Source: Nereocystis luetkeana (taxonomy: Eukaryota; Sar; Phaeophyceae; Laminariales; Laminariaceae). From it: a stretch of DNA of 64,000 nucleotides. The notes below the pieces were generated by a model. The model was not told where the DNA came from, made no database searches, and was given only the letters and a program-made list of their open reading frames with translations. This document shows positions 1 through 46,329 of this stretch, piece after piece; position 1 is the first letter of the stretch; the number at the start of each line of letters is the position of its first letter. Location of the stretch: the NCBI GenBank assembly GCA_031213475.1, contig JARUPZ010000011.1:1-64000 (forward strand), read 5' to 3'. The translations under genes were made by a program, and so were the position numbers.

Positions 1-3000
1 CTAACCCTAACCCTAACCTAACCCTAACCCTAACCCTTAACCCTAACCCTAACTAACCCTAACCCTAACCCTAACCCTAACCCTAACCCTAACCCTACCC
101 CTAACCCTAACCCTAACCCTAACCCTAACCTAACCCTAACCCTAACCCTAACCCTAACCCTAACCCTAACCCTAACCTAACCCTAACCCTAACCCTAACC
201 CTAACCCTAACCCTAACCCTAACCCTAACCCTAACCCTAACCCTAACCCTAACCCTACCCTAACCCTAACCCTAACCCTAACCCTAACCCTAACCCTAAC
301 CCTAACCCTAACCCTAACCCTAACCCTAACCCTAACCCTAACCCTAACCCTAACCCTAACCCTAACCCTAACCCTAACCCTAACCCTAACCCTAACCCTA
401 ACCCTAACCCTAACCCTAACCCTAACCCTAACCCTAACCCTAACCCTAACCCTAACCCTAACCCTAACCTAACCCTAACCCTAACCCTAACCCTAACCCT
501 AACCCTAACCCTAACCTAACCCTAACCCTAACCCTAACCCTAACCCTAACCCTAACCCTAACCCTAACCCTAACCCTAACCCTAACCCTAACCCTAACCC
601 TAACCCTAACCCTAACCCTAACCCTAACCCTAACCCTAACCCTAACCCTAACCCTAACCTAACCCTAACCCTAACCCTAACCCTAACCCTAACCCTAACC
701 CTAACCCTAACCCTAACCCTAACCCTAACCCTAACCCTAACCCTAACCCTAACCCTAACCTAACCCTAACCCTAACCCTAACCCTAACCCTAACCTAACC
801 CTAACCCTAACCCTAACCCTAACCCTAACCCTAACCCCTAACCCTAACCCTAACCCTAACCCTAACCCTAACCCTAACCCTAACCCTAACCCTAACCCTA
901 ACCCTAACCCTAACCCTAACCCTAACCCTAACCCTAACCCTAACCCTAACCCTAACCCTAACCCTAACCCTAACCCTAACCCTAACCCTAACCCCTAACC
1001 CTAACCCTAACCCTAACCCAACCCTAACCCTAACCCTAACCCTAACCCTAACCCTAACCCTAACCCTAACCCTAACCCTAACCCTAACCCTAACCCTAAC
1101 CCTAACCCTAACCCTAACCCTAACCCTAACCCTAACCCTAACCCTAACCCTAACCCTAACCCTAACCCTAACCCTAACCCTAACCCTAACCCTAACCCTA
1201 ACCCTAACCCTAACCCTAACCCTAACCCTAACCCTAACCCTAACCCTAACCCTAACCCTAACCCTAACCCTAACCCTAACCCTAACCCTAACCCTAACCC
1301 TAACCCTAACCCTAACCCTAACCCTAACCCTAACCCTAACCCTAACCCTAACCCTAACCCTAACCCTAACCCTAACCCTAACCCTAACCCTAACCCTAAC
1401 CCTAACCCTAACCCTAACCCTAACCCTAACCCTAACCCTAACCCTAACCCTAACCCTAACCCTAACCCTAACCCTAACCCTAACCCTAACCCTAACCCTA
1501 ACCCTAACCCTAACCCTAACCCTAACCCTAACCCTAACCCTAACCCTAACCCTAACCCTAACCCTAACCCTAACCCTAACCCTAACCCTAACCCTAACCC
1601 TAACCCTAACCCTAACCCTAACCCTAACCCTAACCCTAACCCTAACCCTAACCCTAACCCTAACCCTAACCCTAACCCTAACCCTAACCCTAACCCTAAC
1701 CCTAACCCTAACCCTAACCCTAACCCTAACCCTAACCCTAACCCTAACCCTAACCCTAACCCTAACCCTAACCCTAACCCTAACCCTAACCCTAACCCTA
1801 ACCCTAACCCTAACCCTAACCCTAACCCTAACCCTAACCCTAACCCTAACCCTAACCCTAACCCTAACCCTAACCCTAACCCTAACCCTAACCCTAACCC
1901 TAACCCTAACCCTAACCCTAACCCTAACCCTAACCCTAACCCTAACCCTAACCCTAACCCTAACCCTAACCCTAACCCTAACCCTAACCCTAACCCTAAC
2001 CCTAACCCTAACCCTAACCCTAACCCTAACCCTAACCCTAACCCTAACCCTAACCCTAACCCTAACCCTAACCCTAACCCTAACCCTAACCCTAACCCTA
2101 ACCCTAACCCTAACCCTAACCCTAACCCTAACCCTAACCCTAACCCTAACCCTAACCCTAACCCTAACCCTAACCCTAACCCTAACCCTAACCCTAACCC
2201 TAACCCTAACCCTAACCCTAACCCTAACCCTAACCCTAACCCTAACCCTAACCCTAACCCTAACCCTAACCCTAACCCTAACCCTAACCCTAACCCTAAC
2301 CCTAACCCTAACCCTAACCCTAACCCTAACCCTAACCCTAACCCTAACCCTAACCCTAACCCTAACCCTAACCCTAACCCTAACCCTAACCCTAACCCTA
2401 ACCCTAACCCTAACCCTAACCCTAACCCTAACCCTAACCCTAACCCTAACCCTAACCCTAACCCTAACCCTAACCCTAACCCTAACCCTAACCCTAACCC
2501 TAACCCTAACCCTAACCCTAACCCTAACCCTAACCCTAACCCTAACCCTAACCCTAACCCTAACCCTAACCCTAACCCTAACCCTAACCCTAACCCTAAC
2601 CCTAACCCTAACCCTAACCCTAACCCTAACCCTAACCCTAACCCTAACCCTAACCCTAACCCTAACCCTAACCCTAACCCTAACCCTAACCCTAACCCTA
2701 ACCCTAACCCTAACCCTAACCCTAACCCTAACCCTAACCCTAACCCTAACCCTAACCCTAACCCTAACCCTAACCCTAACCCTAACCCTAACCCTAACCC
2801 TAACCCTAACCCTAACCCTAACCCTAACCCTAACCCTAACCCTAACCCTAACCCTAACCCTAACCCTAACCCTAACCCTAACCCTAACCCTAACCCTAAC
2901 CCTAACCCTAACCCTAACCCTAACCCTAACCCTAACCCTAACCCTAACCCTAACCCTAACCCTAACCCTAACCCTAACCCTAACCCTAACCCTAACCCTA

Positions 3001-4470
3001 ACCCTAACCCTAACCCTAACCCTAACCCTAACCCTAACCCTAACCCTAACCCTAACCCTAACCCTAACCCTAACCCTAACCCTAACCCTAACCCTAACCC
3101 TAACCCTAACCCTAACCCTAACCCTAACCCTAACCCTAACCCTAACCCTAACCCTAACCCTAACCCTAACCCTAACCCTAACCCTAACCCTAACCCTAAC
3201 CCTAACCCTAACCCTAACCCTAACCCTAACCCTAACCCTAACCCTAACCCTAACCCTAACCCTAACCCTAACCCTAACCCTAACCCTAACCCTAACCCTA
3301 ACCCTAACCCTAACCCTAACCCTAACCCTAACCCTAACCCTAACCCTAACCCTAACCCTAACCCTAACCCTAACCCTAACCCTAACCCTAACCCTAACCC
3401 TAACCCTAACCCTAACCCTAACCCTAACCCTAACCCTAACCCTAACCCTAACCCTAACCCTAACCCTAACCCTAACCCTAACCCTAACCCTAACCCTAAC
3501 CCTAACCCTAACCCTAACCCTAACCCTAACCCTAACCCTAACCCTAACCCTAACCCTAACCCTAACCCTAACCCTAACCCTAACCCTAACCCTAACCCTA
3601 ACCCTAACCCTAACCCTAACCCTAACCCTAACCCTAACCCTAACCCTAACCCTAACCCTAACCCTAACCCTAACCCTAACCCTAACCCTAACCCTAACCC
3701 TAACCCTAACCCTAACCCTAACCCTAACCCTAACCCTAACCCTAACCCTAACCCTAACCCTAACCCTAACCCTAACCCTAACCCTAACCCTAACCCTAAC
3801 CCTAACCCTAACCCTAACCCTAACCCTAACCCTAACCCTAACCCTAACCCTAACCCTAACCCTAACCCTAACCCTAACCCTAACCCTAACCCTAACCCTA
3901 ACCCTAACCCTAACCCTAACCCTAACCCTAACCCTAACCCTAACCCTAACCCTAACCCTAACCCTAACCCTAACCCTAACCCTAACCCTAACCCTAACCC
4001 TAACCCTAACCCTAACCCTAACCCTAACCCTAACCCTAACCCTAACCCTAACCCTAACCCTAACCCTAACCCTAACCCTAACCCTAACCCTAACCCTAAC
4101 CCTAACCCTAACCCTAACCCTAACCCTAACCCTAACCCTAACCCTAACCCTAACCCTAACCCTAACCCTAACCCTAACCCTAACCCTAACCCTAACCCTA
4201 ACCCTAACCCTAACCCTAACCCTAACCCTAACCCTAACCCTAACCCTAACCCTAACCCTAACCCTAACCCTAACCCTAACCCTAACCCTAACCCTAACCC
4301 TAACCCTAACCCTAACCCTAACCCTAACCCTAACCCTAACCCTAACCCTAACCCTAACCCTAACCCTAACCCTAACCCTAACCCTAACCCTAACCCTAAC
4401 CCTAACCCTAACCCTAACCCTAACCCTAACCCTAACCCTAACCCTAACCCTAACCCTAACCCTAACCCTA
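1..4470. repeat. Telomere, (CCCTAA)n array
   Basis: Uninterrupted CCCTAA hexamers, so the G-rich strand is TTAGGG and the chromosome terminus lies to the left. The first ~1,020 bases contain about 15 irregular units (for example near 16, 38, 53, 97, 128, 174, 256, 468, 513, 657, 760, 795, 836, 992 and 1017). The next ~3,450 bases are error-free by eye. The array ends at 4470, where the phrase CGTTTTT interrupts it. Confidence 0.99.
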
Positions 4471-4525
4471 CGTTTTTAACCCTAACCCTAACCCCTAACC
4501 CCTAACCCCTAACCCTACCCCTAAA
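4471..4525. repeat. Degenerate telomeric transition
   Basis: After CGTTTTT the sequence returns to telomere-like units with extra C residues (CCCCTAA) and then drifts into CTAAAAATTT. This is the usual junction between a telomere and its subtelomeric repeat. Confidence 0.9.
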
Positions 4526-5372
4526 AATTTATCGAGTGCTCGAAAAGCCGGATTTACAACCCTAACCCTAACCCTAACCTTAACCCTTACCCCAGGGAAG
4601 TGTATGTTGGGTGCACTATAACCGTAATAGTTCCTTTAAACACCGATATGTTTTGCCGAGACTTGGAGTATGTGTTGTTGGAGTTAGGATGAAGCCATAA
4701 AGGCAATGTTACAAAGGCGAATTGATCGAGTGCTCGGAAAGCCGGACGTATAACCCCAACCCTAAATTTGGGGTACAGTGTAGCGGTAATAGTTTCCGAA
4801 AACACTTACAATTTCTTCCGATACTTGGTGTATGTGTGGTTGGAGTTCGGATGAAGCCATAAAGGCCATCTGCCAAGGGCGAATTTATCGAGAGCTCGAA
4901 AAGCCGGATGTAGAACCCAGCCGGCTGATCTCGCCCGAAGGCGCAAGATATTTGCATTTTTATGCTCTCAAGGCCCAGGGAGGTGTATTTGGGTTACTCT
5001 GTAGCCGTCATAGGTTCTTAAAACGCCTATAATGTTTGCCAAGGCTTGGAGTATGTGTTGTTGGAGTTAGGATGAAGCGATAAAGGTAATCTCACAAGGG
5101 CGAATTTATCGAGCGCTCGAAAAGCCGGATGTCTAACCCAGCCGGCTGATCACGCCCGAAGGCGCAAAAGTAGGTGCTTTTTTACGCTCTCAAGGCCCAG
5201 GGAGGTGTATCTTGGTTACACTGTAGCCGTCATAACCCTAACCCTAGAACACCGATAATTTTTGGCGAGACTTGGAGTATGTGTTCTTGGAGTTACGATG
5301 AAGCGATAAAGGCAATATCACAAGGGCGAATGTGTCGAGCGCTCGAAAAGCCGGATGTATAACACGAAATTG
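4526..5372 (+). repeat. Subtelomeric tandem repeat (TAS-like), four units plus a partial
   Basis: Units begin with AATTTATCGAG followed by a GCTCGAAAAGCCGGAT-like block at 4526, 4720, 4882, 5103 and 5329, so spacing is 194, 162, 221 and 226 bp. In units 3-5 the start carries the palindrome TCGAGCGCTCGA or a near variant. Units share the phrases GACTTGGAGTATGTGTTGTT and GATGAAGC(C/G)ATAAAGG. Telomeric hexamers occur inside units at 4559-4590, 4754-4765 and 5233-5246. The short reading frames across this block are products of the repeat, not genes. Confidence 0.93.
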
Positions 5373-5677
5373 TTGACTTCATTAGAGTATAACATATAAA
5401 CATGTAGATATCTCGAAAACTAAGCATCTCCCTAACAATCTGATCCGATCAAAATGATCCCAATGCAATACTGATCAAAATGATATATTTGGTTGTGGAA
5501 AATACCTAATATTGAGGGAGGCGTTTTCGCCAATCACATTTTACACCAAAATCGACTTAACTCGGGGTTCGGTAACGAAATTTCGAAAATCCTTTCCGCC
5601 ACCCACATTTATTTTCTTGTTACGGGGGTCATTCCCCCAAGAGGAAATATTTTCACATTTTCGCTTGGGGACGTCTA
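5373..5677. other. Spacer, nothing recognised
   Basis: AT-leaning unique sequence directly inside the subtelomeric repeat. Short frames overlap on both strands with no domain, no codon pattern and no clear splice sites. I see no gene here. Confidence 0.5.
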
Positions 5678-6016
5678 CTAACCAGCTACGAGCATATTGC
5701 TGCGGCCACGAGCAGTGGTGCGCATTGAGACGGGGACACCAGTATGTTGCTCGATGCTCTTCTTGAGCGCCTTCGCACCGATGTCGGGATTGGCACCCAC
5801 CTTGCTTTCCGCTAGTGGGCCGATTCCGCATAGTCGTATGCGCCCATTACCACCCGAGCAATTCACGTGATCGAAATCGGCATGGGTCACATGCCACTCG
5901 CCAGTGCGCAACTTGTTCGCGCCGACCTCGGCCCTGCAGAAGAACTTCGCCGGTGTAGCGACGATGGGCTCCACGAGGACCAGAGGAGAATCGCCCTGCT
6001 TCGGATCACTGGGCTC
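5678..6016 (-). CDS. Possible exon or gene remnant, unknown product
   Basis: A minus-strand frame stays open from a TAG at 6017-6019 down to about 5678, roughly 112 codons. Its composition is protein-like (Gly, Ala, Asp and His spread evenly), and it contains a WHVTHADFDHVNC stretch. It has no ATG near its start, only a GTG at 5974, so if real it is an internal exon or a decayed fragment. A second minus-strand frame continues the same look at about 6020-6220 in a different phase, which fits either an intron or a frameshift. I do not recognise a family. A chance open frame cannot be excluded. Confidence 0.2.
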   Translation of the reverse strand, partial: EPSDPKQGDSPLVLVEPIVATPAKFFCRAEVGANKLRTGEWHVTHADFDHVNCSGGNGRIRLCGIGPLAESKVGANPDIGAKALKKSIEQHTGVPVSMRTTARGRSNMLVAG

Positions 6017-6249
6017 CTACTATTTCACCCTTTTGAAAGAGGGAGGACCGCCGGAGCAAGGGTACTTTTTCTGGCGCCACCGCCGGTTCCATCAACGAAT
6101 CCTCGACCATCCGAGAATCCGCTTGGACACAGCTGCACGAAGTTATGTTGGTGTGACGAACTTGGAGCCAACCTCCATGCACGGTGCGGAAGACGAGCTC
6201 CGGCCTGAGTTCATGTTGTTGTTCTGGTGTGACGTCGTGGTGTGATGTG

Positions 6250-7303
6250 GCGAGGACGGGGCGCTCAACACAAAATCATAGGAGGACGCCTATAGTGGTG
6301 GCGTTCGCGTTGGGGGCGTGGGGGAACCACTGTGTAGCTTCTGATTGATTCAAAGATGGGCAAAATCAGTTGAAAGCGAGACATAGTAGAAAAAAACAGG
6401 TGTTCCTTGGCCGTTTCGTGCTAAAATCAGTTACAATGTCACCTTGGCCAACTGCAGAGCTCCTGGTGTGTGTTTGTACTTGATTTAAGTCTGTAACTGT
6501 TTTTGGCACGAAGGTGCCCACTGGTATACCTGAATTTGGCAAAAACCCAAACTTTTATTCCCGTACAGGGCCGACACCAGGGGTAGGGGCATGTGAAAAC
6601 AAGGGTAGTAGCGTACAAATTCTAGATAATATCCGTGCAGGATTCGCGCCCTATTGGGTTATTTTGACTTGTACGTAGGGGTGGGGCAGGGGTGCACGCG
6701 GATCTGAATCCCAGATACCCCACTACCCCCCCCCCCCTATATTGGAGGAGAAAAAAAAACAAAGTTCTTTTTTTCCCGTGTTTTTGTTTGTCTCGCGCCT
6801 GCTGACGCTGCTCTATGTACGTGTGTCTAGCGTCTACGAGTACTTCGTACTGCTTGGCTTTGGGTGTACACTGGTGTACACAATAGTTTGTACAAGGTTT
6901 GTATAATATGCACAAGAATGTGTTGATACTGTCGGGAGGGTCGGAGTTGGGGAACCGCCACCACGCTCGCCACACCAGCCACTCGTAACAAGATTGATAA
7001 AAAAACTGCGTTGTGAAATATACCGGCGTGCGAACCTGGGTGGAAGGCGCACGTGCCGACAGTTGCGCGTACTATTAATAGAATAACACCACTGCCATCT
7101 TACACTACGGTGTCAACTACCCGGGTCTTCGAAAAAACAAAATCCGACACCAAACCAGACTACCTCGATGTTGCTCCACGATATACTACAGTAGTACAAA
7201 GCTTGCGTCAAGGTCAATTGAAGCTGTCGTACCGTGTGCCGGTGATAATCCCCTAGCACGACAGTATCCCACGATCGTGCACAATAACCCGAGCGAAACA
7301 TAC
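6250..7303. other. Intergenic stretch with a diverged dispersed repeat
   Basis: About 6338-6505 resembles 46330-46500 (shared phrases such as CAGTTGA..GCGAGACA-like blocks, CAGGTGT..CCTTGGC and GCAGAGCT(C/T)C). The rest has homopolymer runs (C12 near 6726) and no convincing coding frame. Confidence 0.4.
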
Positions 7304-10300
7304 TCAAGACAAATCTACGTACGTACCCGAATCAACCCAATTGACTCCACTGCCTCTTCGACGTGCAGCGCCGCCCGTTCTGCTTACAGCGTAAGGCGTT
7401 GCTGCCCCCACCCCCCGATCCCCACGCCCGCAATCCTTATTCCCTACCCCATCGACTCCCCGACTGTCGTCCTCGTTGTTCCCCCCCCCCCTCTCTTCCT
7501 CCTTGTCCTCCTCCTCCTCCTCCTCCTCCTCTGCTTCGATGTTTCCTTCCTCTTCCTCCTCCTTGTCTTTTTTTTGTTCGTCCTCCTCCTCCTCATCCAC
7601 CCCCTCTTCGTCCTCTTCCTCTTCGTCTCCCCCGTCTTCCTCCTCGTCGCTCCCCTCGTCCTCCTTGTCGTCGCCCTCTTCCTCCTCGTCGTCCCCCTCT
7701 TCCTCCTCGTCGTCCACCTCGTCCTCCCCGTCGTCGTCGTCGTCGTCCTCCTCCTCCTCTTCGTCCGACGCATCGATGTCGATGGGAACGCCGCTTGCTT
7801 GCTGTCGGGTTCCTTTTTCTCCCCTTCCACTCGATCTCTTGCGTGGTCGAAGCGTCACGCTGGCTCCTTTCTTGGGGTGATTTCGCGACCTAATTGAATG
7901 CATCCTCTCCCTCACGGCTACTTTCTCTGACTCGCTCACGTCGTACTTGGCTTGGAACGCCAAAGCCACGGCATCGTTGGACCTCACGGTGACGGCCACG
8001 GCGTGTTCCATCGGCACGTGGTGGGCCATAGAGTACTTCCATACCCAACGGTCATCTTGGCAGAAAAGGCACTTGAGGGGCACGTTAGTGCACGGCGAAT
8101 GCTTGCTACCTTTCGACGCCGTTTTCAGCCTGAGCGTGACGGAGGCGTTTCGCTCGTCCGCCCTTGGAGCGATAGTGCAGCTGGAGAACACGCTAGGCGC
8201 CTTTTTCCCCTTTGGGTGCACATGTACCCATGTCTTGCAGGCCCCCACACCCGCCACACCACAGAAGCCGCATGTGTCGCTCTCCTGCAAGGCCTGTGGA
8301 GTACACGCCGATTTTGTACACGCACGAACAACGCAGGTAAATCGAATCAGAACACGAGTTGCGCAGATTTGTCATGGCTAGAGTTTTCAAGGCAGTGCGA
8401 TACGCCTCGCGCAATAAAACACTACGCGTGGGTTTGCGTGGGTCAAGCGTGGGTACATACTTGTACGAAGAAGGCAGACAGGGCGCACCTTGGTCTCTTG
8501 AATGTGCCCCCATACGTGCTGCCGCAGTTCCCGCACAACCATCGCCATTTTGCAAGCTGGACACTCGACCGTCCCAGCAGTAGAGAATGCGGGTACTTCC
8601 TCTGGTGTCGGAGCCACACCCGACGTGTAGGTTAAGTCAGCGTGCAGAGGAAGAGAGTCGACGGTGTGGGGAACCGTTCGCATGACAGGAGTTTCGTTAA
8701 ACTCCTCCACGAGTCCCACGGTCTCAACCAGTACCTCCTGCGTGGAAAATAACTCCTCCATGCTGAACACGTACGTCATCTTATCCACGCTCATGTCCGG
8801 GTCTAGTTCTATCACAAACTTTAGAGGGCAGATGTAGGTGATCTCTGTGCACAGCTTTCGCGCCTCCCACTCGAAAAGTGTACCATTTCCCCCCACCAGC
8901 AGCTTCATAAGGTGCCCCTTCACGACCTGTCCACCCACCGATCCGACCCGGGTATCCGTGCTTGGCGGTGCTGTTGCCGACAAAACCCCGACAGCGTAGG
9001 TAGTGGGCTCATTGTGTTGCGAAGGAAGTTTGAAAAGTGTTGCAAATGGGTCTCCTATCTGCAACCGTGCAGCGTAGTCCGTTTGGTCGGTTCCGGGGGC
9101 GTCCACCGCCGACACGTCTGAAGGGGCTGGGAATCCCCGCACACGCGCAAGCCGGTCGCGCGAGGCGTTACGGAAGTGCTGTCCAGTGTATTCCTTCAGC
9201 GCCGATGCCTTATGGACCTGCCAGCAGATGATTAAGAGGGGGGCATGAGAAACAAACATGACGCTTTGGTGCAAGTGGCTAATTCTATAGATTGAATGAT
9301 AGTCGAAAGTTGTGTGGACGTAATTTTGCAGTTGGACAAGGGTGTACCTTTAGGGACGCACCTTTTTGCCGCCGAGGTCAAGGTACTGCGAGTGTTTCGT
9401 CAGCCCTGGGTCGTTCGTCTCCAGCGCCTGATCGATGACGACGTCGTGTGGATCCCCGCCGGCTGCGTCTTGGCGTGGTGTAGAAGCCGGAGGATTTGAG
9501 CCACCATTCGTCGGCTCCTCGCGAAGAGCACCCTCAGGATCGCCGTCCACGTCGGGATCAGATGGTGATCGCATGCCGAGCATACCTTTCGTTGGCCTTA
9601 CAGGTTAAATGCAAGCATAACGCAGCTCAAGTCAGGTTTCCACGCGAGATCAGGATGGCATGCGAGTGGCATGCGAACCGACAGCATCATATCGACAAAA
9701 CAGGAACTGGTGGGTACCAGCAACACGATAACCGTATTGCAAGAACCGGCCGGAAATTCGCGTGATATTCCGGAGATTCGACAGTTTGTTTTGCATGCCC
9801 GCATTACGAAGACGTGGATGAGTTACCTGCCGCACCCCGCAAACATAACACCATGACAATACCGTATGAATGGTCGAATGGCTTCGGAAGAGAGACACAG
9901 GGGGGGGGGAAACATGTACGACGAGGTGCGTACCCGAAAGGTCGAAGCATGGTGATGTTCTCGTCCCCCAAGTCCGCGAACGTTTGCTGTGACACCTCGG
10001 TGTAGTCGGAGTGGCCCCGCAAGACCGCAGAAGCGTCCGCCAGCCCCGCCTTCCAGCATGCGGTCACGTCCACACCCCGCACGTCGCAATTCCCTGGGGG
10101 TCCCCCCTTCTCCCACGTTAGGAAGTTCATGTGGTCGAGAGTCTCGCTCAAGCGCCTGGAGGCCTTTGCCCAGTCCGGGTGTTTGTTGTAGATCTCCTCC
10201 TACGCAACAGCAGCATCGAGCCGATCAGCAAGTTCCCGCGGTCGTGCTTTCCACAGCATGAAGAGAGAGTCGACCCGCCCTTACCCGTGTCTCCCACGGA

Positions 10301-10602
10301 AGTCGCTGACTGGCAACACTGTGCAAAGTCACCGGGTAGTTCCTGACTCGAGGCTCAGGGACGTCTGGTGAAAGCCCCGTGCAAGGGTAGGAGGTTTCCG
10401 CCCGTAGAACGCTGTTGGTCGTCGCGGACAAGATTGCTTCGGTGCTACTATCGTCGTCTACCTTTGGCCCGCCTAATGATGGCGGCGGAACCACCTCGAC
10501 CTCATCCCTTTCGGAACCTTTGCCACTGTCCTCCATCGCCGATGATGTTTTCGCGGTCTTCTCTGTGGTGCTACTCGCGGCAGACTGGAAATAGCCAAAC
10601 AA
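7304..10602 (-). CDS. Spliced zinc-finger protein with acidic tail, transposon-associated family (five exons)
   Basis: Exons on the minus strand: about 10602-10285, 10199-9934, 9596-9362, 9217-8489 and 8284-7304. All introns are GT-AG (starts GTAAGG, GTACGC, GTGCGT, GTGCGC; lengths 85, 337, 144, 204) and all phases join without a stop, giving at least 840 residues. Exon 1 carries a CTGL..YPVTLHS..LPWE block. The exon 3/4 join reads GGKKVHKASALK followed by RDRLARVRGF. Exon 4 ends with a C-x2-C-x11-H-x3-H finger. Exon 5 has CGFCG, PCTNVPLKC and a second finger, C-x2-C-x12-H-x5-H with WVWKY. The last ~150 residues are dominated by Asp/Glu. I recall this block order from large, repetitive protein families of basidiomycete fungi, often regarded as mobile-element linked; that is from memory, and the function is not known to me. 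The true 5' end is uncertain: no in-frame ATG was found and the frame stays open above 10602. Zinc binding and a DNA or chromatin role are inferred. Confidence 0.8.
7482..7768. repeat. Imperfect TCC/TCG triplet tract encoding the acidic tail
   Basis: About 290 bases of nearly pure pyrimidine triplets on the plus strand (CTCCTC, TCGTC, TCTTCC). Read on the minus strand they are GAG/GAC/GAA codons of the zinc-finger gene's Asp/Glu tail. Leucine-, proline- and serine-rich frames in the same place are antisense shadows. Confidence 0.9.
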
Positions 10603-10849
10603 CGTCTTCCTGGTCTGTGTCGACGTAACGTAGTCCCCCCCGGCACGAAAACATGAACGCGGCCGATCGTTTGTTAGTCACCCCGTGCATCAATTTACGT
10701 TGCCTACCGTATGTCTTAATTGCTGTACCACTGCAACCCGACGAAAGTAGGGCCTACTCGTAGTCGACAAAACGTGTTTTTTTGGGGCGCCCTGGGTGAG
10801 CAGTAGTGAGGCGACCAATGGAAAATAACAGTGGCGGGGATCCATGCTC

Positions 10850-11191
10850 TCACTTGTGTTTGGTTGAAGCCTCATGCTGCTGCACGTGCATGCCGGTGGT
10901 CTTGCTTGGGTCAACCCCAAAATATTTCCCGCACTTGCAGACCCACTTTCCACTGCTGTTCCTCGTGGCTATACGTGCCAACGGCCAATCACGCTCGGTG
11001 ACCTTCACTGGGCTGCACGTACACGGAGGTTGTGAAACAAACGTACGGGAAGGTTTCATTTTCTGTCGCTTTGAAGAGTTTTTTTTTGTGTTCTTCGTGC
11101 TCTCCCGGTGGCTACGTATACGAGTAGCTGCTATTACTAGTACGAAGAACGAACGCCTGCTGCTGTATTCTCCCTTCTCAACTTGCGGCAC
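10850..11191 (-). CDS. Possible exon with a C2H2-like zinc finger
   Basis: A 113-codon minus-strand frame. The first third is basic and Ser/Lys-rich, then PPCTCSPVKV, and the end has WVCKCGKYFG and HVQQHEASTKH before the stop. The cysteines and histidines fit C-x-C-x14-H-x3-H, a finger-like spacing. It starts only 250 bases upstream of the larger zinc-finger gene on the same strand, so it could be a 5' neighbour or a piece of the same mobile unit, but I found no phase-compatible splice between them. The plus-strand 183-codon frame over the same bases is Phe/Cys-rich and looks like its shadow. Start not determined. Confidence 0.3.
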   Translation of the reverse strand: MPQVEKGEYSSRRSFFVLVIAATRIRSHRESTKNTKKNSSKRQKMKPSRTFVSQPPCTCSPVKVTERDWPLARIATRNSSGKWVCKCGKYFGVDPSKTTGMHVQQHEASTKHK

Positions 11192-11511
11192 CCCTGGTAT
11201 TCCAAGTCAACCACAATCCCGAAGGGGAGCCTTCTATCTCGTATTATTCCGGCGGAGGTGTGCAGGCAGGTATGTGTGTCGCTCGAGTGCCGTGTGGTGC
11301 GACGTGCGAAGGGAGGAGGGGGTCTCCGCGTACGTCGGCATAAATTTGTATACGTAGGGGGCATAGCGTGGACATAAAAAGAGCCTTTCATTGGCTTAAA
11401 AATGACCAAAAAAAACGGTGAAAGTCAAGCAGAGTAGACAGAATCAGGTATACCTACAGTATGCATTGTCTGCTCTGCTTACTGCACTGTTCAGCGTAGT
11501 ATCTCTGTGTC
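11192..11511. other. Spacer, nothing recognised
   Basis: No convincing coding frame on either strand. A short stretch near 11395-11450 (AATCAGGTATACCT) resembles 49085-49115, so part of it is old dispersed repeat. Confidence 0.4.
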
Positions 11512-11632
11512 GTAGTTTTGTGACCACAGAACTGGTACCTCTCTAGGATGAAGAATCGGCACGGACACTGGGTGTGCTGGATGTCGACGGGTAGAAAGGA
11601 AGGTTTAATGTGAAGAACACACACACACAGTA
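11512..11632 (+). repeat. Repeat A core, copy 1
   Basis: About 120 bp with the family signature: TGTGACCACAGAACT, CTCTAGGAT, AATCGGCACGGACACTGG, TGTCGACGGGTAGAAA and a terminal (AC)n run. Further copies lie at 15505, 19715, 24725, 27373, 27518 and 35341 (plus) and 40431 (minus). Confidence 0.85.
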
Positions 11633-12697
11633 GGCAAAAACACGTACAACGAGTTTTGGACCAATGGCAGGACACGTGGAGTGCGTTTTCACTTGAGTTC
11701 AAGTATGTACCTGTTTTTATTCCCAAACGGACCACGTATACCTGTTTTTGGCCGCTGCCAAGCCGCTGCCCCGGTATTTATGTACAAGTTTGTACCAGCT
11801 TGAAACTCCGGCAAGAAATCATTGAGAAAGCAGCCTTTGCGAGCCTTTTATAAAATAGGAGAACATTTGCTGCGAGTCAACCGAGTCAAGATATCGTGAT
11901 TTATTATATATATACTCGACCCAGTAGCGCTGCCACTCACCGTTCGTGCTCCTTGGAACACTCGTGCTCTCTAGCCAATGCCGCGTCAAGCGTCGAACCA
12001 TCCCCGAAATCATGGCCGCAGCAGCAACCCACACGTCGTGTCCACCGCTTCCAGCGTCGCTGGAGCTCTTGCTGCAGTGACGCTGCAACCAACCCTGAGC
12101 AGTGAACGGCGCTGCTGTGCCTGCTTCCTCGGCATCGACGGTGCTCATGCTCTCGGCCGTGTCCATGATTTTTCTTCCCCAGAGTGTTCAGCTACAAGCA
12201 GAAACGCTGGGTGGTGTTGTATTGTCTAGAAGGCCTTGCGTACCCTCGGGAATGCGGGGACGATTCAATCTCATCCCCTGCTATTGGTGTATATAGGTTT
12301 TAGTATGGATTCGGATTATATAGGAAATAGTATGGTACTGCGCTTTATGGGTGGTCTGATTTCGTTTATATAGGATTTAGTGTGGTGTGCACCCCCCTAT
12401 ACGCCGAAGGGTGCCTAAATAAAAAACTTGACACCCCCCCCCCCTATATTTGGTTTCTTAAAAATAAATTTTGGAGTGTGGTGTCGTTTTTTTTTTTTTT
12501 CGTGCACCCCTGGGTGGGGTGCCAATTTGTAATTTAGCTGTATAAAGATGTATCGTCCCTTAACTTGAGTTTAACCTTCACGATCAACATACTGATACTT
12601 ATACTTGTTTGCTACACTTATAGGTGCGACTGGACTATTGCGACGACTCAAGCACTTTGCCACGACTATCGCGCAAGCTGCGGGTCGACTGCTTTGT
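11633..12697. other. Gene-free stretch
   Basis: Short overlapping frames only. Around 12290-12400 the phrase TATATAGG(A/T)TTTAGT recurs three times, and 12430-12520 has C- and T-homopolymers. I see no gene. Confidence 0.4.
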
Positions 12698-13064
12698 CTA
12701 TCCTACTTTCAAGCACGTGTTCTTCCGTACTTGCCTTGCAATGCCGCGAACAGTGCCGTCTACAAACCCCCAACAGTTGTCCAGGCGATATCCCCACGAG
12801 CGCAGGGCTCCGCGAAGTCCCCCACCCGAGGAATCAGTCTATCCATGTCAAGTTCGTGAAGTGTAACATGGAGTTGAAAGCCTCGCTGATGCATGATTCC
12901 GCGACGCCGAACAACATGCCCATGTCTGTCAGCCGATGTGGGAACGCCGAGCGATACAAGTGGATGTAGAACGCCTCACGCCCCGACACGACATAGTCGC
13001 AGTCGGCACGAATCACAACGGGAACACCCAGGCTACCCATCATCGTAGCGATCTGCGTTTTCAA
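12698..13064 (-). pseudogene. PIF/Harbinger-type transposase remnant
   Basis: Three minus-strand frames give consecutive pieces of one protein type. About 13064-12834 gives a segment with YRSAFPHRLTDMGMLFGV and SEAFNSML, matching the N-terminal region of Harbinger transposases (usually a PNRL..LE..FGR..S.IFN pattern). About 12850-12765 gives DRLIPRVGDFAEP in a second frame. About 12800-12698 gives LDNCWGFVDGTVRGIAR in a third frame, the hallmark GF(V/I)DGT block containing the first catalytic Asp. It then stops at a TAG (12698-12700). Frame changes and the missing later DDE blocks mark it as dead. The family assignment rests on motif order known from the family; no search was run. Confidence 0.65.
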
Positions 13065-13737
13065 ATGGACGTACCACGGCGAGATGTAAGGGTGTAGTAA
13101 AAAGGTTGTTGAGTGTTGCGAATACCTTATCCGTAAAGGAACAGTAGTATGCGTAGCCCGCTTTCATTTCATATCCTATGTTCCTCGTAGGTTAATGGAG
13201 ACGGCATGTACATCCTTTTGCGTCTCCGACTCTTCAATTTTTCAGATGTATGAGTATCTGCTGAGTTTGTGGGCTCTTCGTTTCGAGTGCGTGTATCAGC
13301 CACCGTGAGAGGTACACTACAGCAGATACACTATTTATTGCTGTCAAATGGAACACGATACGAGTAGGACTACTACCGTATACCCAAACTCGCGCCGTAG
13401 AGGCAACTACTGGGGTTGAAGTGAGAGGTGGGGATAAATACCGACAGTACCACGGCTCCCATCGTAACGGTTACCGTGTAGAAAACGCTTGTCTTGGCAT
13501 GCGTGGGAGGTACTACGTACCAAAATACAGCAGTACCTGATAGTTTATTACCTCAAATACTAGAGGTTGCTTGACGGCGAGTGGTCACCGCTGTTCCGTG
13601 GCTTGCCGTTGTTGATACCTACCTGGCACAGCAGTAATTCGATATAAGTCGTTGCGTCTGCTACAGCTGTTGCCCGCTGTTTTTTAAATCAAGAACTTGA
13701 ATACTCGTTTCAGGCGGAGTTATCGCCGGAGGGGTGT
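13065..13737. other. Gene-free spacer
   Basis: Unique-looking sequence without a credible frame, repeat or RNA gene that I can recognise. Confidence 0.4.
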
Positions 13738-14460
13738 GTACCAAGCGCACAACCCGCAGAATACCCGTACGTCGAAAGCCGTCGAAAAGCGAAACTACTT
13801 ATCAAGCGGCCTTTTTAACGAGGAGTGTTTTTTTGTTTTTTTCAGTATTTTCCCGACATTTCGGTATTTTCCAATAGGAAAACACCGATAAATATCGGTA
13901 TTTATTTCGTGAAAATACTGAAATACACAAAAAAACAGCGACCCTCTACGTCAATCTTAACGAGGAGTGTTTTTCAGTTTATTTTCAGTTTTTTCCAGAA
14001 TTTTCGGTATTTTCCTATATAAAAAAAAGCCGACACATACCGAAATTTCGTGAATATACCGAAATAAACCTCAAAAACAGACCTCGTTCAACCGTACCAA
14101 GCGCACAACCCACAGCTAACCCGTACGTCGAAATCCGTCGAAAAGCGAAACTACTTATCAAGGGGCCTTTTTAACGAGGGGTGTTTCTTATTTTTTACCT
14201 GGTACAGTATTTTCTCGAAAGTTCGGTATCTTTTTAGAGGAAAAAACCGATAAATATCGAAATCTCGTGAAAATACTGAAATAAACAACAAAAAACAGTC
14301 CTCCTTAAAATCGACCCTCCACGTCAATCTTAACGAGGAGTGTGTTGCAGTTTTTTTCAGTTTTTTCCAGAAATTTCGGTATTTTCGTATTATAGGATAA
14401 AACCGACAAATACCGAAATTTCGTGAAAATACTGCAATAAGACCTCGTTCAACCGAAAGC
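13738..14460. repeat. Nested palindromic tandem repeat (MITE-like)
   Basis: Two ~358-bp units start with ACCAAGCGCACAACCC (13739 and 14097). Each contains two ~145-155-bp subunits that begin AACGAGG(A/G)GTGTTT (about 13818, 13960, 14173, 14332). Each subunit folds back on itself: a left arm like TTTCAGT..TTTCGGTATTTTC and a right arm like CGAAATTTCGTGAAAATACTG. The structure fits foldback MITEs amplified in tandem. Confidence 0.75.
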
Positions 14461-14889
14461 AACAGCAACAACATCACCCAAGCACCACCACTCCATCAAG
14501 TACATATCATTACTTGAAAACACTCCGAACCCAAGGCGAGGTGTACTCTTTGGATAACTATGAGACGACGCCTCCAAATCGGTACAGCGGCAAAAAGCGG
14601 TAGAGGGTTGAGGCGAGCTCCTATACTCGAAAGGGGATCTACCCGTACAGAGTACAGATTCTGATCTGATGCAAGACAACATGATATGGGCTTGTACAGC
14701 AGTAGTGCAAACAAAACTCGTACACACTGCAGTAATCTTTGTGTTTCGCGTAAAGTGTTGCAAATACTCGTACCGGTTCCCGGGTGAAGCAAACTAACTT
14801 CTTGCAGTCCTGGTAGCTGAAGCGTCTCGACATGTCCCTCCTAACAATCCGTGAGGGTGTATTGTCAATCCCTAACCGGCCTACTCTTT
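14461..14889. other. Gene-free spacer
   Basis: Overlapping frames on the minus strand are short and Cys/Leu-rich with no domain. Nothing recognised. Confidence 0.35.
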
Positions 14890-15630
14890 TCTGATTGATA
14901 AGCCGTACTGAGAGAGCCGTGCGGCGTGGTTGGATGACGAACCTGCTCTGCTCGTTTCGTATTATTATTGTCTGACGCCAAGGGGTTGGGCATACTTGAC
15001 GAACGCAGGGCGGATACGGCAGTCTGGGTAGCAAGGTACCAGGCGGATTAGCAGGGAGAACCTGGCCATACTACTCGTACCACAAACTGTTGCCGCCACC
15101 TTGAAGGTGCTTTGGGCTTTGGTCTGCCTGTTGTTTCCTTTTTGGTATTTTTCCTTGTTACTTTTTTCCTTGGTTCTTTGTCTTACTCTGTTTACAAGCA
15201 GTGGTGTTTTTTCTTATTATTTTTTCTTCCTTTTTTTCCAGCTCGTTTTTTTTTTAGGGTTGGCCACCTCGCCTGCGGGGGGGGGGCACGACAGATTGTT
15301 TCTCCTAGATTTTGTTTTCATGTTTCTTCTTTTTCCCTTTCGATTTGTCTGCTACCTTGTTTTTGTTTTCTCTTTGATTGTTTCTTTTCGTTACACTATT
15401 TCATAGATTGCGTATGTCGTGCCTGTCGTATCTAGTATGATGACATACATGGCTTTGCATTGCCCACTGCAGTGCATACTGCACACGTGGCAACGTAGTA
15501 TCTCTGTGGCGTAGCTTTGTGACCACAGAACTTGTATCTCTTCTAGGATTGAAGAATCGGCACGGACACTGGTTGTGCTAGATGTCGACGGGTAGAAAGA
15601 ACGGTTTAATGTGAAGAGCACACACACACC
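14890..15630 (+). repeat. Repeat A, long copy (~740 bp)
   Basis: Closely matches 34721-35474 over its full length. Order: a head with TCTGATTGATAAGCCGTACT; a decayed coding block that reads LDERRADTAVWVARYQAD then EPGHTTRTT; a T-rich middle with GGCCACCTCGCCTGCGGGG; and the repeat A core (15505-15630) ending in ACACACAC. The 14940-15085 block is the same peptide remnant seen at 23629 and 34800 and, in decayed form, on the minus strand at 46700-46800 and 49740-49830, so the family once carried or captured an ORF. Confidence 0.85.
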
Positions 15631-16002
15631 GTGTGCAGCAGTCCTAAGTTCGCCACGCTCCACATATATATACGTGCGCAAAGGACAATCACCCCGCAGA
15701 TCGAGCCAAGCCAATGCTAGTTTGTTTCTTGCGCTTGACCCTCGCGCTGATTATCAGACGAGAGATCTTGCGGTACCGGTTGGGCGGGTGCGCTGACTGC
15801 ACGCACCTTCTGGCTCTGGTTCTTGTACCGTGGTGGGGACCCTAAGCTGTGTAGAATTATCTGTAGGTGGTGTGTGTTACTTGTGATCGAGTGGTGGTGG
15901 TCACCCTTTTCTGCGGCGGAATACGGCAAAACTGCCCAGCTGCGGTAGGATTCACCTACCAATCAGTTTAAAGCAGTCGGCTTGTGTCATCTCTTCGTAC
16001 AT
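15631..16002. other. Spacer, nothing recognised
   Basis: Between repeat A and the SINE. Short frames only. Confidence 0.35.
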
Positions 16003-16342
16003 TCGCCCCAGTGGTTCAAGTGCTTAACCTCGAATTCTACTTGTGTTTGAGTCCTGGGTTCGAGCCCCAGGTGGGTCGGACATTTGACTTTATTTGCAAA
16101 AATAAAAATAAAAACGATTCAATTTTTGAGAGCGCCTTGCAGCGTGGGTAGGCACAATTCGATGCGAGTCGACGAGGGAAGAAAAGGCTGAAAGCTTCTC
16201 GCGAAAAAAATGAAGGCACGTATCGTAGCGGGAAGGGTGTAGACGAGCCTACTATGTGACCCCGGATCTGTGATAGGAGTTGGAAGGAGAGAGAGAAGAA
16301 GATGTGCGAAGATAATAAATGAGATGAAAACAAAAAAACAAT
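16003..16342 (+). mobile_element. tRNA-derived SINE, copy 1
   Basis: About 340 bp. The head (16003-16080) is tRNA-like, with an A-box-like TGGTTCAAGTG and a B-box-like GGTTCGAGCCCC, the two internal parts of an RNA polymerase III promoter. The body contains GCGTGGGTAGGCACAATTCG, GAGTCGACGAGGGAAGAAAA and CCGGATCTGTGAT. The tail is AAATGAGATGAAAACAAAAA. Three more full copies on the minus strand (36211, 37021, 39810) and a 3'-end fragment (24531) define the family. It carries no coding sequence and would depend on a LINE for movement. Confidence 0.88.
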
Positions 16343-16372
16343 ACTTCGTAACTCGTAACCTTGAGCAGTGTT

Positions 16373-16376
16373 CCGA
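16373..16376 (+). other. Target-site duplication CCGA (left)
   Basis: CCGA directly before the left LTR; the same four bases follow the right LTR at 23537-23540. Confidence 0.75.
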
Positions 16377-16939
16377 TGTTGCAGCGCTACGGGCTTCAGG
16401 AGTCGCCCAGGTGGGCGACAGGGTATTCTGTGATGTACGTTGACTGACCTGACCAGTGACGCACGGAGGGTGCATCGTGTAAGGCAGCGATAAAGCCGTA
16501 GGATGGCTCGCTGTCATATCGATGTAGGTATACAATGGAGTGTCCCTGGCGGGGGGGGCCATGGTCTGGGTCATGGAAACCCCGTATCGGATGTAATGGT
16601 CGATACGGGTGCTCTCTGGCCCTACCTGGGGTTAGTCAATCCCACCAAAGAACGAAAGAAACAAGTCAAACCATATCCTGTTCACACACCGTGCATGAGT
16701 CTTGCCCACCACGTTCATGATTATCGCCTATCACGTGCCTGTCTGTTAATCACACGTCGCACCTGCTGAGCAATACAAACACTCAACTCGCGTGGCGTCT
16801 GGCCACCCCGTGGCCAGAGAGGATTTAGGAGCGAGGTACGGAGGAAATCCCCATGAGGACTCTCTCAACGAACGACAACAGCTAGCTATCGAGGTGAGAC
16901 CGAGCCGATAGCGGCACACAGGAGGAGGCAGCTGTAACA
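16377..16939 (+). repeat. Left LTR
   Basis: 563 bp; differs from the right LTR at two bases near 16550, one in AGCT(A/G)GCTA near 16884, and one in the terminal CTG(T/A)AACA. The 88-codon frame inside it occurs in both LTRs and is taken as non-coding. Confidence 0.85.
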
Positions 16940-17039
16940 TGATGAACCCAGGCCGATGACAGAGAGAGGGGGAGATTGGAGCGCAAGGTCATGAGCTCTG
17001 GCGGGGACACGAGAGATCGGTACCCAGGGAATTTGTTTG

Positions 17040-17250
17040 GCCCCGAGCACCTGGGCCCGAGTTTTCTCCCGGGCGGAACGAGGGCCCGAATAACTGGGCC
17101 CGAGAGTCCTCCTGGGCGGAATTAGGCCCAAACATCGGGGCCCGAGTTTTCCCTGGGTGGGATCAGTGTCTCTGCCCGAGATTTTCCGGGATGGAATCTG
17201 ATGGGTGGCCAAGTATCGAGCCCCGAGTTCTGTCCGGGATGATGGAGTCT
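17040..17250 (+). repeat. ~45-bp tandem repeat inside the LTR element
   Basis: Four to five imperfect copies of a unit built on GGCCCGAGTTTTC..CCGGGCGGAA. Basic minus-strand frames here derive from the repeat. Confidence 0.7.
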
Positions 17251-19699
17251 AATGGGTACCAGCGGCGAGGGATACACGTAGAAACTACGATAGAGTACAT
17301 ATATTCGGGTAGCACTACTGCTGTTTATAGCAGTGACCATGCATAACGTATCAGGAAACAGTAGTCACGGCAGGTAGCCACCATCGCATACTTGCGATAA
17401 GGCAGCACCAAAAAAGAGAAGGCCACAAATCTCTCCGTCCTGACCCTCGATTTGTTTTTTGTTCCCGCGCACGCCTTGATGATTGTTTGCGGCCGGCCTT
17501 CGCCTCAGGTGTAACTAACTCTCGTTTTTTTGCGGCCGTTCTCCGCCTCAGGCGTAACTCTCGTTTTTTTTTGTTTTCGGCCCCGCACATCTCGTCTGTG
17601 TTTTTTGGTGCGGCCGGTTTTTTTTCTTGCTGTGCGGTACTCCTCGAGGAAAAAAATGGGGGGGGTCGGCTGTATTCATGTAGACTACCATGGCAATACG
17701 TATGCGTACGACTCTAATAATCAGCCCAACCTGAGCGACAGCAGTATTTTCGTGGTCACATGTCACATGTAACTGCTGTTTGTTGAAGTATACCTCGCTG
17801 CTGGTATCGAAACAGGGAGTACTTTTGAATATCGTTGCGGGAGGAGCGCTTTCCGTAGATGGTTCTAAGTTTGAAGTTGTACGCAGGAACCGATAACCTA
17901 CCATGCCCCGAGCACTGAGTAATAGCTGCCTGGAGCAAAGGCGCCTCAACTTGAAAATTACACAGAAAAGCCGTATCCCCGTCTACAATACCATCAGTAG
18001 TCTATACACTACCTGGTACGCAGTTTCACACGATGCTCAAAAAGATGAGAAGATGGTATACCAGGGTATATTATACGACGAGTTGCATTACCGTGCGTAC
18101 ACGACTAAGAATATGAATATTAACGATAGTACATGTAATGTGGAAAAAAGATAGGAAACCATATTCCTACTGCTACTGCTCTACTCTGTACCTGCAGTTT
18201 TTTATTTATTTTTTCTACCCCGAACAGGGTGAGCTCTTGATACACGGTTAAGCATACAGGGGGGGTGGCTCGCAGTATGTATGCTTTTAACAACATCAAT
18301 AAAGGGCGTTTATGGGCTGATGTATAATACTACACACTCCCGGAAACCTGTACCAGGTACCTGGTAGGCCGTATGGCATAATCCTTAGGGACCATTTCGT
18401 ACATCTCTCTTCCCATCTTTTGGAGTCATGATAACGCGTTGAAAAGCGACATATCAGGATGTACGACACACACCGTATGCACACGAGTACCATGTATCTG
18501 GGATTCATACGGGGCATACTACGGTGAGGAAGCTGGGTAGAAATTACGAGTTTAGTCGAAGGCCACATATCATACGTGGAGGATGTATCCACAGTATAAT
18601 ATACAGTATTCATACCACTATCAAAATAACCGTTCATGGGACTGAAGGTCGCACGGCAAAAGCTCTCTAGATCCTTGGGTCCATCGCTCCTCTTGCTTTC
18701 ACAAGCGTGGAGATGTTTAACTTTGGCCCCACACATCCCTACACACGTACGGGATGAGTGTCCCCTACTACCGGAGCAAAGTAATGTTGTTGGGAAGCCG
18801 TGCAGCTGTGCAGTGTACGGCATGTTACTATTCGGGGGTAGATGAAAGCTATGTTGAAACAACTGAGGGCACACAACGAAAGTCATAGCGGGTTGTTATG
18901 GTCTCCAAGTACCCGATACGCTGGAATTCCACTTGTTTCACCCGTTCGGGTCTTCTCACCCGGTACGTTGGCATTTCACTGGCTTTCCCTGGTCTTTTGA
19001 CCCGGTACGTGGCCATAGGAAACAACCATCCTCATTAGCTTTCGCGCACATAATTAGTCCGTCAATTATAAGAAAAAAGAACGGACAACCCAGGCGATGG
19101 GAATGTTTGCAAAACTGTGATATGAGGGGTGATCGTGTTCTTTCTATAATCCCACGTTCCATCTTGCATACTATGTTATGGGATACTCGTTATATGCATA
19201 TATCCACATGTTTTCGGTGTTGCCTGCCTTGTAGGACAGTGATTCGTGTGATATACTGTTATGTATTCACGCTGCCGATGGTGCTCTGCCTGTTGTTTCG
19301 TAAGGCTTTGAAGATACTTGTCTGGTCAATGCATGCAGGCATACTCGTTGCTCGTGCTCCGTTTGCCTGTTGCTCGTGCTCGTATGTTCGCTCGTTTTTC
19401 ATGATCGCACACACATGCATGTTCGTTAATAAATGTCTGCATGCGATTGACCACATAATGTCTTCAAAACCAAATACAACCGACAGGTGTCGATACAAGC
19501 CATAGGTGCCGTACGTACTATTAATAATACACGCATGCTCTCGTGGACCGTTTGCTCGGTTAAGTGATAACGGAAACTAACAATGTCGAGCCTTACGCTG
19601 TTTGGGCGTACATAACCACCCTTTAGAACGATGAACCCCTGGACAACAACGTGCATTGTCGGCTGGCAAACATGGAACTTTCGAGAAATCCACGTATAT
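17251..19699. other. LTR-element interior, no recognised gene
   Basis: Includes a short duplicated GCCTCAGG(T/C)GTAACT..CTCG block at 17500-17575. A 196-codon minus-strand frame (18296-18886) has a Cys/Ser/Tyr-rich, patternless composition and I could not link it to Gag, protease or any family. Another 190-codon plus-strand frame (18933-19505) is likewise unremarkable. Confidence 0.35.
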
Positions 19700-19714
19700 T
19701 GTGATGACTGTGGT

Positions 19715-19830
19715 GTAGTTTGTGACCACAGGAAAAATCTCTCTCTAGGATCAAATAAAGGGCACGGACACTGGTTGTGCTGGATGTCGACGGGTAGAAA
19801 TAATGGTTTAAGGCGAAGAACACATACACA
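19715..19830 (+). repeat. Repeat A core, copy 3 (nested in the LTR element)
   Basis: TTTGTGACCACAGGAAAAAT, CTCTCTAGGAT, GGGCACGGACACTGG and TGTCGACGGGTAGAAA, in plus orientation. The core alone is present, without the long T-rich head. Confidence 0.8.
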
Positions 19831-20480
19831 ATACGTGCAGAGTACGAGTCGAACACGTACGGCCGCATTACCTTATTCATCCCCACTGCTGTAAAGTATG
19901 TATATTATCTTCATTCAGCATACGGAGCTGGTATCACATCACACTGGATACGGCAGGCACGACGCACGCATTCCGTCCAAGAACAGAGAGAGATAGCAGT
20001 GCGACACCAACGAATAAATAAAACCTATTAACCTAGTGGCACCGGGCATATTAGTACTGGTAGTTACAAACCACCCGGCACTAGATTATCGACTACCAGG
20101 ATGTCGACAAAGCAGTTTGTGTCACAGAATCGGGGATCACACACATAAAAAGTTGCAATCCCGTGATCCCAGCGCCCGAATACTGGGGGATGCGTGAACA
20201 GTTACTTGATAGTATCATGCACGAATATTTGAAAACCGTGAAAACAGGCGTTTGTTTTACATTCGTGCTGAAAGGACCTCGGAGCGCTGGCCTCTATCCG
20301 GAGCGCTTTGCCTGTAGCAAGGGTGTCTGCTCTTCAAGTACAAATACATGCATCCTAAGCAGCGGATACGAGATACGCAATGCAAATCAAACTGAGGAGA
20401 GAAAACCTGGTAGTTTCCGATAGGAAAACAAAGCCCCTCCCTAGCGCGCATACACACACGCCGTCTTAGTCGCTGACGCA

Positions 20481-45140: not shown

Positions 45141-46329
45141 CGCGCAAATCATGGGTCTCCATGCACCGTCTTCCTGCCGCTCTTCATGGATGGCCGCATC
45201 ATCGCCTTGGCCCAATCCACCCGCTCCTTTGCGCGTGCACTCGTTGCCATTCCCTTCCAGTCGTTTCCCTTTCTCCGTCATCCTGAAAAACAAAATGCTC
45301 CTCGCACTTGCGGTTCTGATCTGGGAAATAAAAATTCTCGCGCAGGGGGAGGTCAATCCGTCTCCTCCCCGCACGTCGACGCTCAGTCTCCCTCCTCCCT
45401 CGTCGTCGAATCCAGCCTCCTACCGGCGCAATAGACTGTGCCGTAGTGTGGCCTGTGGTGGCGCCTGCCTCCGCGCACGGACCCCCCGATTGAGCATTGC
45501 TGCTCTGCCGCAGCTGCCTAAAAAGACGCGCGAATCGTAGGTCTCCGTGCCTGACGCACCACGTACGACCCAACTCTACTGCCGCCTGAGCCTCGCGGCC
45601 ACAGGCAGCAGCAAGAAGGTATCACTCCTTGAGGGTGAGTCCGGCCTTACACCCGCCAGAAAGACCTACCCCACTCGCTATTAGCCTGATAGGGCATGCC
45701 TCGCAGCATTCCTTGCCGAGGCAGCGAGGGGAACGGTATACCAGGCTGGTACAATATACCAGGTACCAGGTTTTCGAGTAGGGGAAACGACGCCTTGATA
45801 CGTGAAGGAGTACGTACGCCTTTTCAGTACCTCAGAAGTAAGTACTGCAACACAAATCATAAAAAAACACAGGTCAAGCCAATTGTTTTCGCCCCCTCCG
45901 GGGGGGGGCGGCGTTAGGTGCATGATATTGCAGTCTGCGTGCGCCCTCGAGCCAGGCAAGACATAAAAAGAAAGCAAGAAATCAAGAAGAAACACACACA
46001 TTTTAGTAAATTGTAGGCTAGCACGCTACGCGAGGGGTGTAGAACAAAGAAAGAACAAACAAACGCTACTGCTTTAGACTAATAATGTGGCAATAGAAAA
46101 CAACGGAGTACGCATCACAACAACCTATAACTTATAAGACCTGAAGCATATCGCACACCCCAAAGAAGACACAGTGAAACCATCGTACGCATATATATCA
46201 TATATATATTATACTTTGACGTCCCCCCCGCACGAGTACAGAGTTTATGCGTTTAATACCAACGAATTTCAACCTAGGGAGGGCAGGCGCATACGGAGAG
46301 AAACGATAACAGTGTACGTATGGCCTCTC
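45141..46329. other. Gene-poor stretch
   Basis: GC-rich to about 45650 with overlapping long frames on both strands, none with a domain; the rest AT-rich with TATACCAGGTACC at 45756. I do not call a gene. Confidence 0.35.

Follow-up and report, generated by a model that had tools for sequence, protein, structure and literature searches.

A zinc-finger gene reported near a Nereocystis luetkeana telomere is very probably the remains of a transposase in an internally deleted DNA transposon

The first 64,000 nucleotides of Nereocystis luetkeana contig JARUPZ010000011.1 (GCA_031213475.1, positions 1-64,000, forward strand; hereafter the window) begin with a CCCTAA telomere array that spans positions 1-4524. 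On the minus strand at 7304-10602, an earlier note had reported a five-exon gene for a nucleic-acid-binding protein with zinc fingers and an acidic tail. Very probably this feature is part of a cut-and-paste DNA transposon of the alga, in a copy that is non-autonomous and internally deleted; this judgment includes the transposase and the mechanism proposed below. The copy measures 5,826 bp (6687-12512), and its ends are common to other copies in the genome. What was reported as a gene is what is left of the N- and C-terminal parts of a transposase gene that has lost its catalytic core, and the region is neither a host gene nor a subtelomeric one. Describing the product as a nucleic-acid-binding protein understated the case, as the protein is a remnant of the element's own transposase.

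The window forms the start of contig C11 in an assembly of 465,085,209 bp and 1,987 contigs, which served as the own-genome search set. This assembly gave 68 matches to the light-harvesting family PF00504, in keeping with a photosynthetic eukaryote. Nucleotide matches to 7304-10602 numbered at least 58, with the best 40 of 388 candidates scored. Among the matches listed were 15 places on larger contigs besides the window, with 88-98% identity: three on C1 and one each on C3, C5, C6, C8, C9, C13, C14, C17, C20, C21, C28 and C41. Fourteen small contigs (C1798, C1725, C1713, C1704 and ten others) carry one identical, shorter deleted form that matches query positions 1-2573. The target-site duplication (TSD) is identical in C1798 and C1725, the two of the 14 that were read, and the fourteen may be redundant or satellite-like.

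To define the ends, window 4525-20000 was compared with 20 stretches surrounding 16 copies, including a diverged copy near the start of C8. The match stops on the left at window 6685-6694 in 13 of the 16 copies; the exceptions are C14, where the contig stops inside the element, C6, whose left end is displaced, and C8. On the right it stops at 12507-12513 in 11 of the 16, with the end missing from C5, C9 and C1c, C8 again an exception, and C14 continuing into a flank shared with the window. Common to the copies are 12-bp terminal inverted repeats (TIRs), CAGGGGTGCACG at 6687-6698 on the plus strand and, given in plus-strand letters, CGTGCACCCCTG at 12501-12512 on the minus strand. The copies differ in their internal gaps while sharing these ends, as do deletion derivatives of cut-and-paste transposons. 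A 17-bp direct repeat lies inside both ends (6727-6743, mostly poly-C, and 12434-12450, both on the plus strand; 17/17 match, E 0.006) and may be a binding site for the transposase.

Reading of the flanking sequence revealed the TSD GGTGGGG on either side of the element, at 6680-6686 and 12513-12519. Eleven distinct insertions with both ends were compared in this way, with the window added, the identical C1798 and C1725 counted once, and C14, C5, C1c, C9 and C8 left out for want of one end. An exact 7-bp TSD was found at the expected ends in five of them (window GGTGGGG, C1798 CCCGATC, C1a TCCCCTC, C41 GAAGAGC, C6 TCACATC) and at slightly altered ends in three others (C1b, C13 and C28), giving a duplication of fixed 7-bp length in 8 of 11 insertions, three of these eight at altered ends. 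To obtain more than seven bases in the window, C1a, C41 or C6, one or two bases must be taken away from one terminal repeat; seven is the maximum in C1798, C13 and C28, and the C1b duplication is also readable as 8 bp.

What the window copy has lost is preserved in C5, which holds 3,167 bp that are absent from the window at 10234-10236, where the deletion left a scar with 3-bp microhomology (TCC). Because parts of this segment recur with 98.9-100% identity in C20 (791 bp), C1b (68 bp) and C41 (57 bp), it belongs to the element. The C5 region contains six open exon pieces on the minus strand with a strong codon-position bias (p = 1.6e-24 over 638 codons, the last piece extending into the part shared with the window), and by eye four of them terminate at a GT donor and the other two within two bases of one. 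The pieces contain the motifs IFILQMDEIACEERARF (MDEI), SLASDGDSQRR, CYDLKHNLKRF and GTDGLENLFALVRT (LENLF). From the D of MDEI to the D of SDG the spacing is 126, from this second D to the D(2)H 44, and from the second D to the E of LENLF 228; these values are approximate because the exons were joined by eye. P transposase has its catalytic residues at D230, D303, [C/D](2)H at D339 and E531, corresponding to spacings of 73, 36 and 228 (PMC8230255). The telling points of this comparison are the motif order and the large gap before E, since with hand-joined exons the exact agreement at 228 may be luck. Judged by sequence, the segment would thus encode a DDE-like transposase core that resembles the P-element protein in its order of motifs. 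A protein search of the own genome (E ≤ 0.001) recovered the entire core from C5 alone; C20 also had its first part, and C11, C14 and C3 had its last.

The remaining coding blocks of the window can be read against this core. Minus-strand open blocks do lie where the earlier note had them, ~2.8 kb from the array end by our measure and about 3 kb by its own, and they can be joined in phase by GT-AG introns. An upstream exon plus five in-phase exons yields a 913-residue model, if the first junction is accepted. Over the joined exons the codon-position bias is strong (chi2 p = 5e-16 over 748 codons, excluding the acidic tail) and absent from the introns (p = 0.96); five of six exons taken singly reach p < 0.05, the N-terminal exon having p = 0.40. 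Length alone is weak evidence: at 320 residues, the longest open reading frame (ORF) tested lies above the 95th percentile (249) but below the maximum (386) obtained with 500 shuffles. The first transposase exon seen (10854-11059), with an ATG start and a CxC...HxxxH finger, is mostly open in C5 too; it precedes the range given for the gene, which therefore does not start where reported. The second (10285-10609) runs from KTLFGYF to LPWETR and ends at the donor GTAAGG at 10284. Next, according to the C5 comparison, is the 3' part of the last core exon (9934-10236, ELADRL..EEIYNKHPDW..MLRPF), which contains the second exon of the earlier note. Exon joining and codon bias mark an exon at 9362-9596 with LGGKK at its end and, together with genome matches, both an exon at 8489-9217 with VHKAS, RDRLARVRGF and the first C2H2 finger and the last exon at 7304-8284, which carries the CGFCG cluster, the TNVPLKCLFC..WKY finger, a basic stretch, the acidic tail and the stop. 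The motifs that had been listed (CGFCG, TNVPLKCLFC and W.WKY) are indeed present, the tail is Asp/Glu-rich over ~100 residues, and both of the C2H2-type fingers were seen as matches, CPACKMAMVVRELRQHVWGH and CLFCQDDRWVWKYSMAHHVPMEH; at least two such matches occurred in 16 of 5,000 residue shuffles.

The blocks are thus joinable, but the five-exon gene is not a complete one: its start lies outside the range, the 3,167 bp that include the catalytic core are gone at 10234-10236, and its first junction, from the donor at 10284 to the acceptor at 10199, is an artifact. The codon preceding EEIY (10200-10202, minus strand) is TAG in the window and TTG in C5 and C14; the C5 exon with the LENLF motif continues unbroken upstream through ...NVDAKELADRLGAAVALEEIYNKHPDW... 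The AG taken for an acceptor is a window-only change within a transposase exon, and given TTG in the other two copies the apparent intron end 'TAG|GAG' is a nonsense change beside the deletion scar and not an inherited splice site. A first joined model that accepted this junction was overturned by the C5 and C14 codon and the open C5 exon. A plausible multi-exon gene model can thus arise from a deleted transposon.

From the ends, TSDs, dispersed copies, deletion and C5 core sequence, all of which were observed directly, we infer a route of DNA binding, catalysis, repair and movement in trans. The full-length element would encode one multi-exon transposase with an N-terminal zinc finger, a DDE-like core and a C-terminal module of zinc fingers, basic stretch and acidic tail. 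The N-terminal finger would bind the element ends, and the transposase, bound at the subtermini, would cut at CAGGGG/CCCCTG and insert the element at a target site opened by staggered cuts 7 bp apart. Excision gaps that were incompletely repaired would leave copies with intact ends and internal deletions. The window copy lost its 3,167 bp across the 3-bp microhomology. Since only its ends and N- and C-terminal coding remains survive, it would be mobile only with transposase supplied by another copy.

Several observations weigh against this interpretation. Among the 16 copies fetched, none combined the core with both ends; C5, the only one with the core whole, is without its right (5') end, and its exon 1 is frameshifted by a 25-bp deletion. 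The TSDs are not uniform: that of C3 appears only after both ends are shifted by 3-4 bp, those of C17 and C20 are imperfect, and the left end of C6 is altered as well as displaced. The core has D1-D2 spacing of 126 as compared to 73 in P transposase, again with joins made by eye, and the TSD is 7 bp here as compared to 8 bp for the P element and THAP9. A Pfam search of the C5 core to E 5 returned nothing beyond two sub-threshold, unrelated matches, CPV_RdRP_C (E 0.076) and Pilosulin (E 0.098), and no PDB chain matched the core in phmmer.

Closeness to the telomere array (~2.8 kb) and the presence of another copy where C14 ends would also suit a zinc-finger gene of the host or subtelomere that had spread through the genome by duplication, and the earlier note had spoken of a mobile-element or subtelomeric family. 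The mobile half of that proposal is borne out by dispersed copies, common ends, TIRs and 7-bp TSDs, whereas the subtelomeric half is not, as most copies lie far from contig ends. Of the 15 other larger-contig places, 13 were >100 kb from a contig end and only the C14 copy sat at one; the length of contig C21 was not seen. The diverged C8 copy is ~90 kb from its contig end. Because the C14 copy has the same TSD as the window copy and a matching right flank (96.1% over 799 bp), it is the window insertion copied with the chromosome end, and the telomere position of the window copy looks incidental. A duplicated host gene is further opposed by the TSDs at different sites, the series of internal deletions and the transposase-like core in C5; already contradicted by the ends and TSDs, it has very little probability. 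A second proposal, compatible with the transposon interpretation, is that the window copy still makes an N-finger/C-zinc fusion protein that represses transposition, like KP of deleted P elements. Among P elements, the small non-autonomous ones frequently code for repressors, the 207-residue KP protein being an example (PMC7776569), and the window copy has open exons at both its N- and its C-terminal side, which a GT-AG join brings into a single 913-residue frame. Yet the joining acceptor is absent from C14 and C5 (TTG), and constraint was not seen. Changes private to one copy, counted over the two large exons in seven aligned copies, gave nonsynonymous:synonymous counts of 10:3 for the window, 13:1 plus a stop for C14, 5:2 for C5, 9:3 for C3, 9:1 for C1798, 2:3 for C41 and 1:1 for C1a. 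Across the seven there is no sign of constraint since insertion and the sum fits free decay, C41 and C1a being uninformative by themselves, and a working repressor is accordingly improbable.

The third alternative concerns the superfamily, and here too the transposon interpretation would otherwise stand. The element shares with the P element and THAP9 a cut-and-paste mode with TIRs and many internally deleted copies (PMC7776569), a multi-exon transposase with an N-terminal zinc finger, and an apparent D, D, D(2)H, E order, with 228 between the second D and E in both, a value that is approximate here. Apart from the TSD length, it differs in TIR length, which is 12 bp as compared to 31 bp in Drosophila and 13 bp in zebrafish P elements (PMC7776569), in the longer D1-D2 interval, and in its additional C-terminal zinc module and acidic tail. 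No P-type transposase model matched the core in hmmscan to E 5, no THAP domain matched the N-terminal 112 residues to E 1, and PF21787 gave 0 matches in the own genome, where its controls were silent as well. A Kyakuja-type (KDZ) element or a hAT with 7-bp TSDs would fit the TSD length, and the former also the CA..TG ends of the element: two Laccaria Kyakuja families described in PMC12730594 have 7-bp TSDs and CA..TG ends, hAT7 of rust fungi has a 7-bp TSD in the same source, and KDZ elements are reported from the brown alga Ectocarpus (PMC12477816). In contrast to the 12-bp TIRs found here, those Laccaria families are given as being without TIRs (PMC12730594). The KDZ domain PF18758 was not among the core matches to E 5, no KDZ model came up in Pfam for the window protein, and the PF18758 genome search returned nothing in the own genome, its controls being silent too, while neither a hAT transposase nor a hAT dimerization domain was matched by the window protein or the core pieces in Pfam. 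We regard a KDZ or hAT identity as unlikely, though less so than either of the two preceding alternatives. The superfamily is left open, with P-like as our best guess, one that we hold to be somewhat better than even. In the Ectocarpus superfamily table of PMC12477816 (Table 1), P is absent and 51 DNA families are classed as 'unknown'.

Wider searches returned no significant relative. The best Pfam match of the window protein was zf-Di19 (E 1.4, below cut-off), and two sets of other window pieces and ORFs (5 and 10 proteins) gave only DUF2586 (E 0.13). In the PDB, phmmer with the window protein listed 12 chains at E 0.28-7.1, CTCF fingers among them, none significant. No relative was found in viral contigs by protein searches or by a degenerate pattern (70 stretches, best tblastn score 27.7 bits), or in prokaryotic genome contigs by a pattern scan (6 stretches). 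Rfam gave no match, and no existing description of the element was found in the open-license literature. The block order LPWE, HKAS, RDRL.RVRGF, CGFCG, TNVPL.C..C, WKY presumably recurs in repetitive basidiomycete proteins of unknown function, as do, we assume, motifs like those of the C5 core; both serve as leads only. The P-like string, 7-bp TSDs and C-terminal zinc module with acidic tail raise the tentative idea, which we consider somewhat less probable than not, that the element founds an undescribed DDE lineage, perhaps a superfamily, of algae and mushroom-forming fungi. If this is true, a large orphan family of basidiomycete 'hypothetical proteins' would be unrecognized transposases. 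Should the assumed fungal resemblance prove correct, numerous basidiomycete proteins that now lack a name could be given a function and examined for transposase activity. For a family of transposons unrecognized in the Pfam searches made here, the element ends, the TSDs and a catalytic core are now available.

The two large exons are free of frameshifts in most other copies, and exon 5 is in frame in 11 of the 14 close copies covered, with one stop (C14); the decay is therefore recent. A protein search of the own genome at E ≤ 1 returned 95 matches (68 of 68 candidates scored). Besides the close copies, these included 17 places (E ≤ 0.001, 35-68% identity) whose similarity lies mainly in the block after CGFCG, among them C3:4068608, C11:8236357, C14:9039044, C29:6385967 and C33:3743485. 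All four diverged places that were fetched match only this block; SPCTN.PL is kept in all four, and the spacing of the next cysteine pair is kept only in one (L118). Since the cysteine spacing is mostly lost, these relatives would be old, partly decayed families of the same transposon.

Other repeats lie within and around the element. A minus-strand fragment at window 12690-13163, VVSGREAFYIHLYRSAFPHRLTDMGMLFGVAESCISEAFN ... CWGFVDGTVRGIARQ, is broken by a frame change and lies outside the element; we take it for part of a PIF/Harbinger-like transposase, a label without a Pfam match. The idea that a Harbinger element carries the gene was dropped given this outside position. Window 12513-13510 and the C14 end form a chromosome-end block common to C11 and C14, and a unit matching 13005-13510 occurs several times in C14. 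Palindromic dispersed repeats resembling miniature inverted-repeat transposable elements occur at 6340-6512 and 46328-46503 and at 11675-11749 and 49089-49161; the inverted pair 6392-6435/11706-11749, once considered as the element ends, belongs to these repeats. Subtelomeric repeats of ~221 bp (4526-5363) adjoin the telomere array and contain scattered telomere motifs. They differ from the Ectocarpus satellite, since that is 98 bp as given in PMC11541908. Inside the element, 11470-11630 is a dispersed repeat with copies at ~15467, 19708, 24680, 27368, 35306 and 40431.

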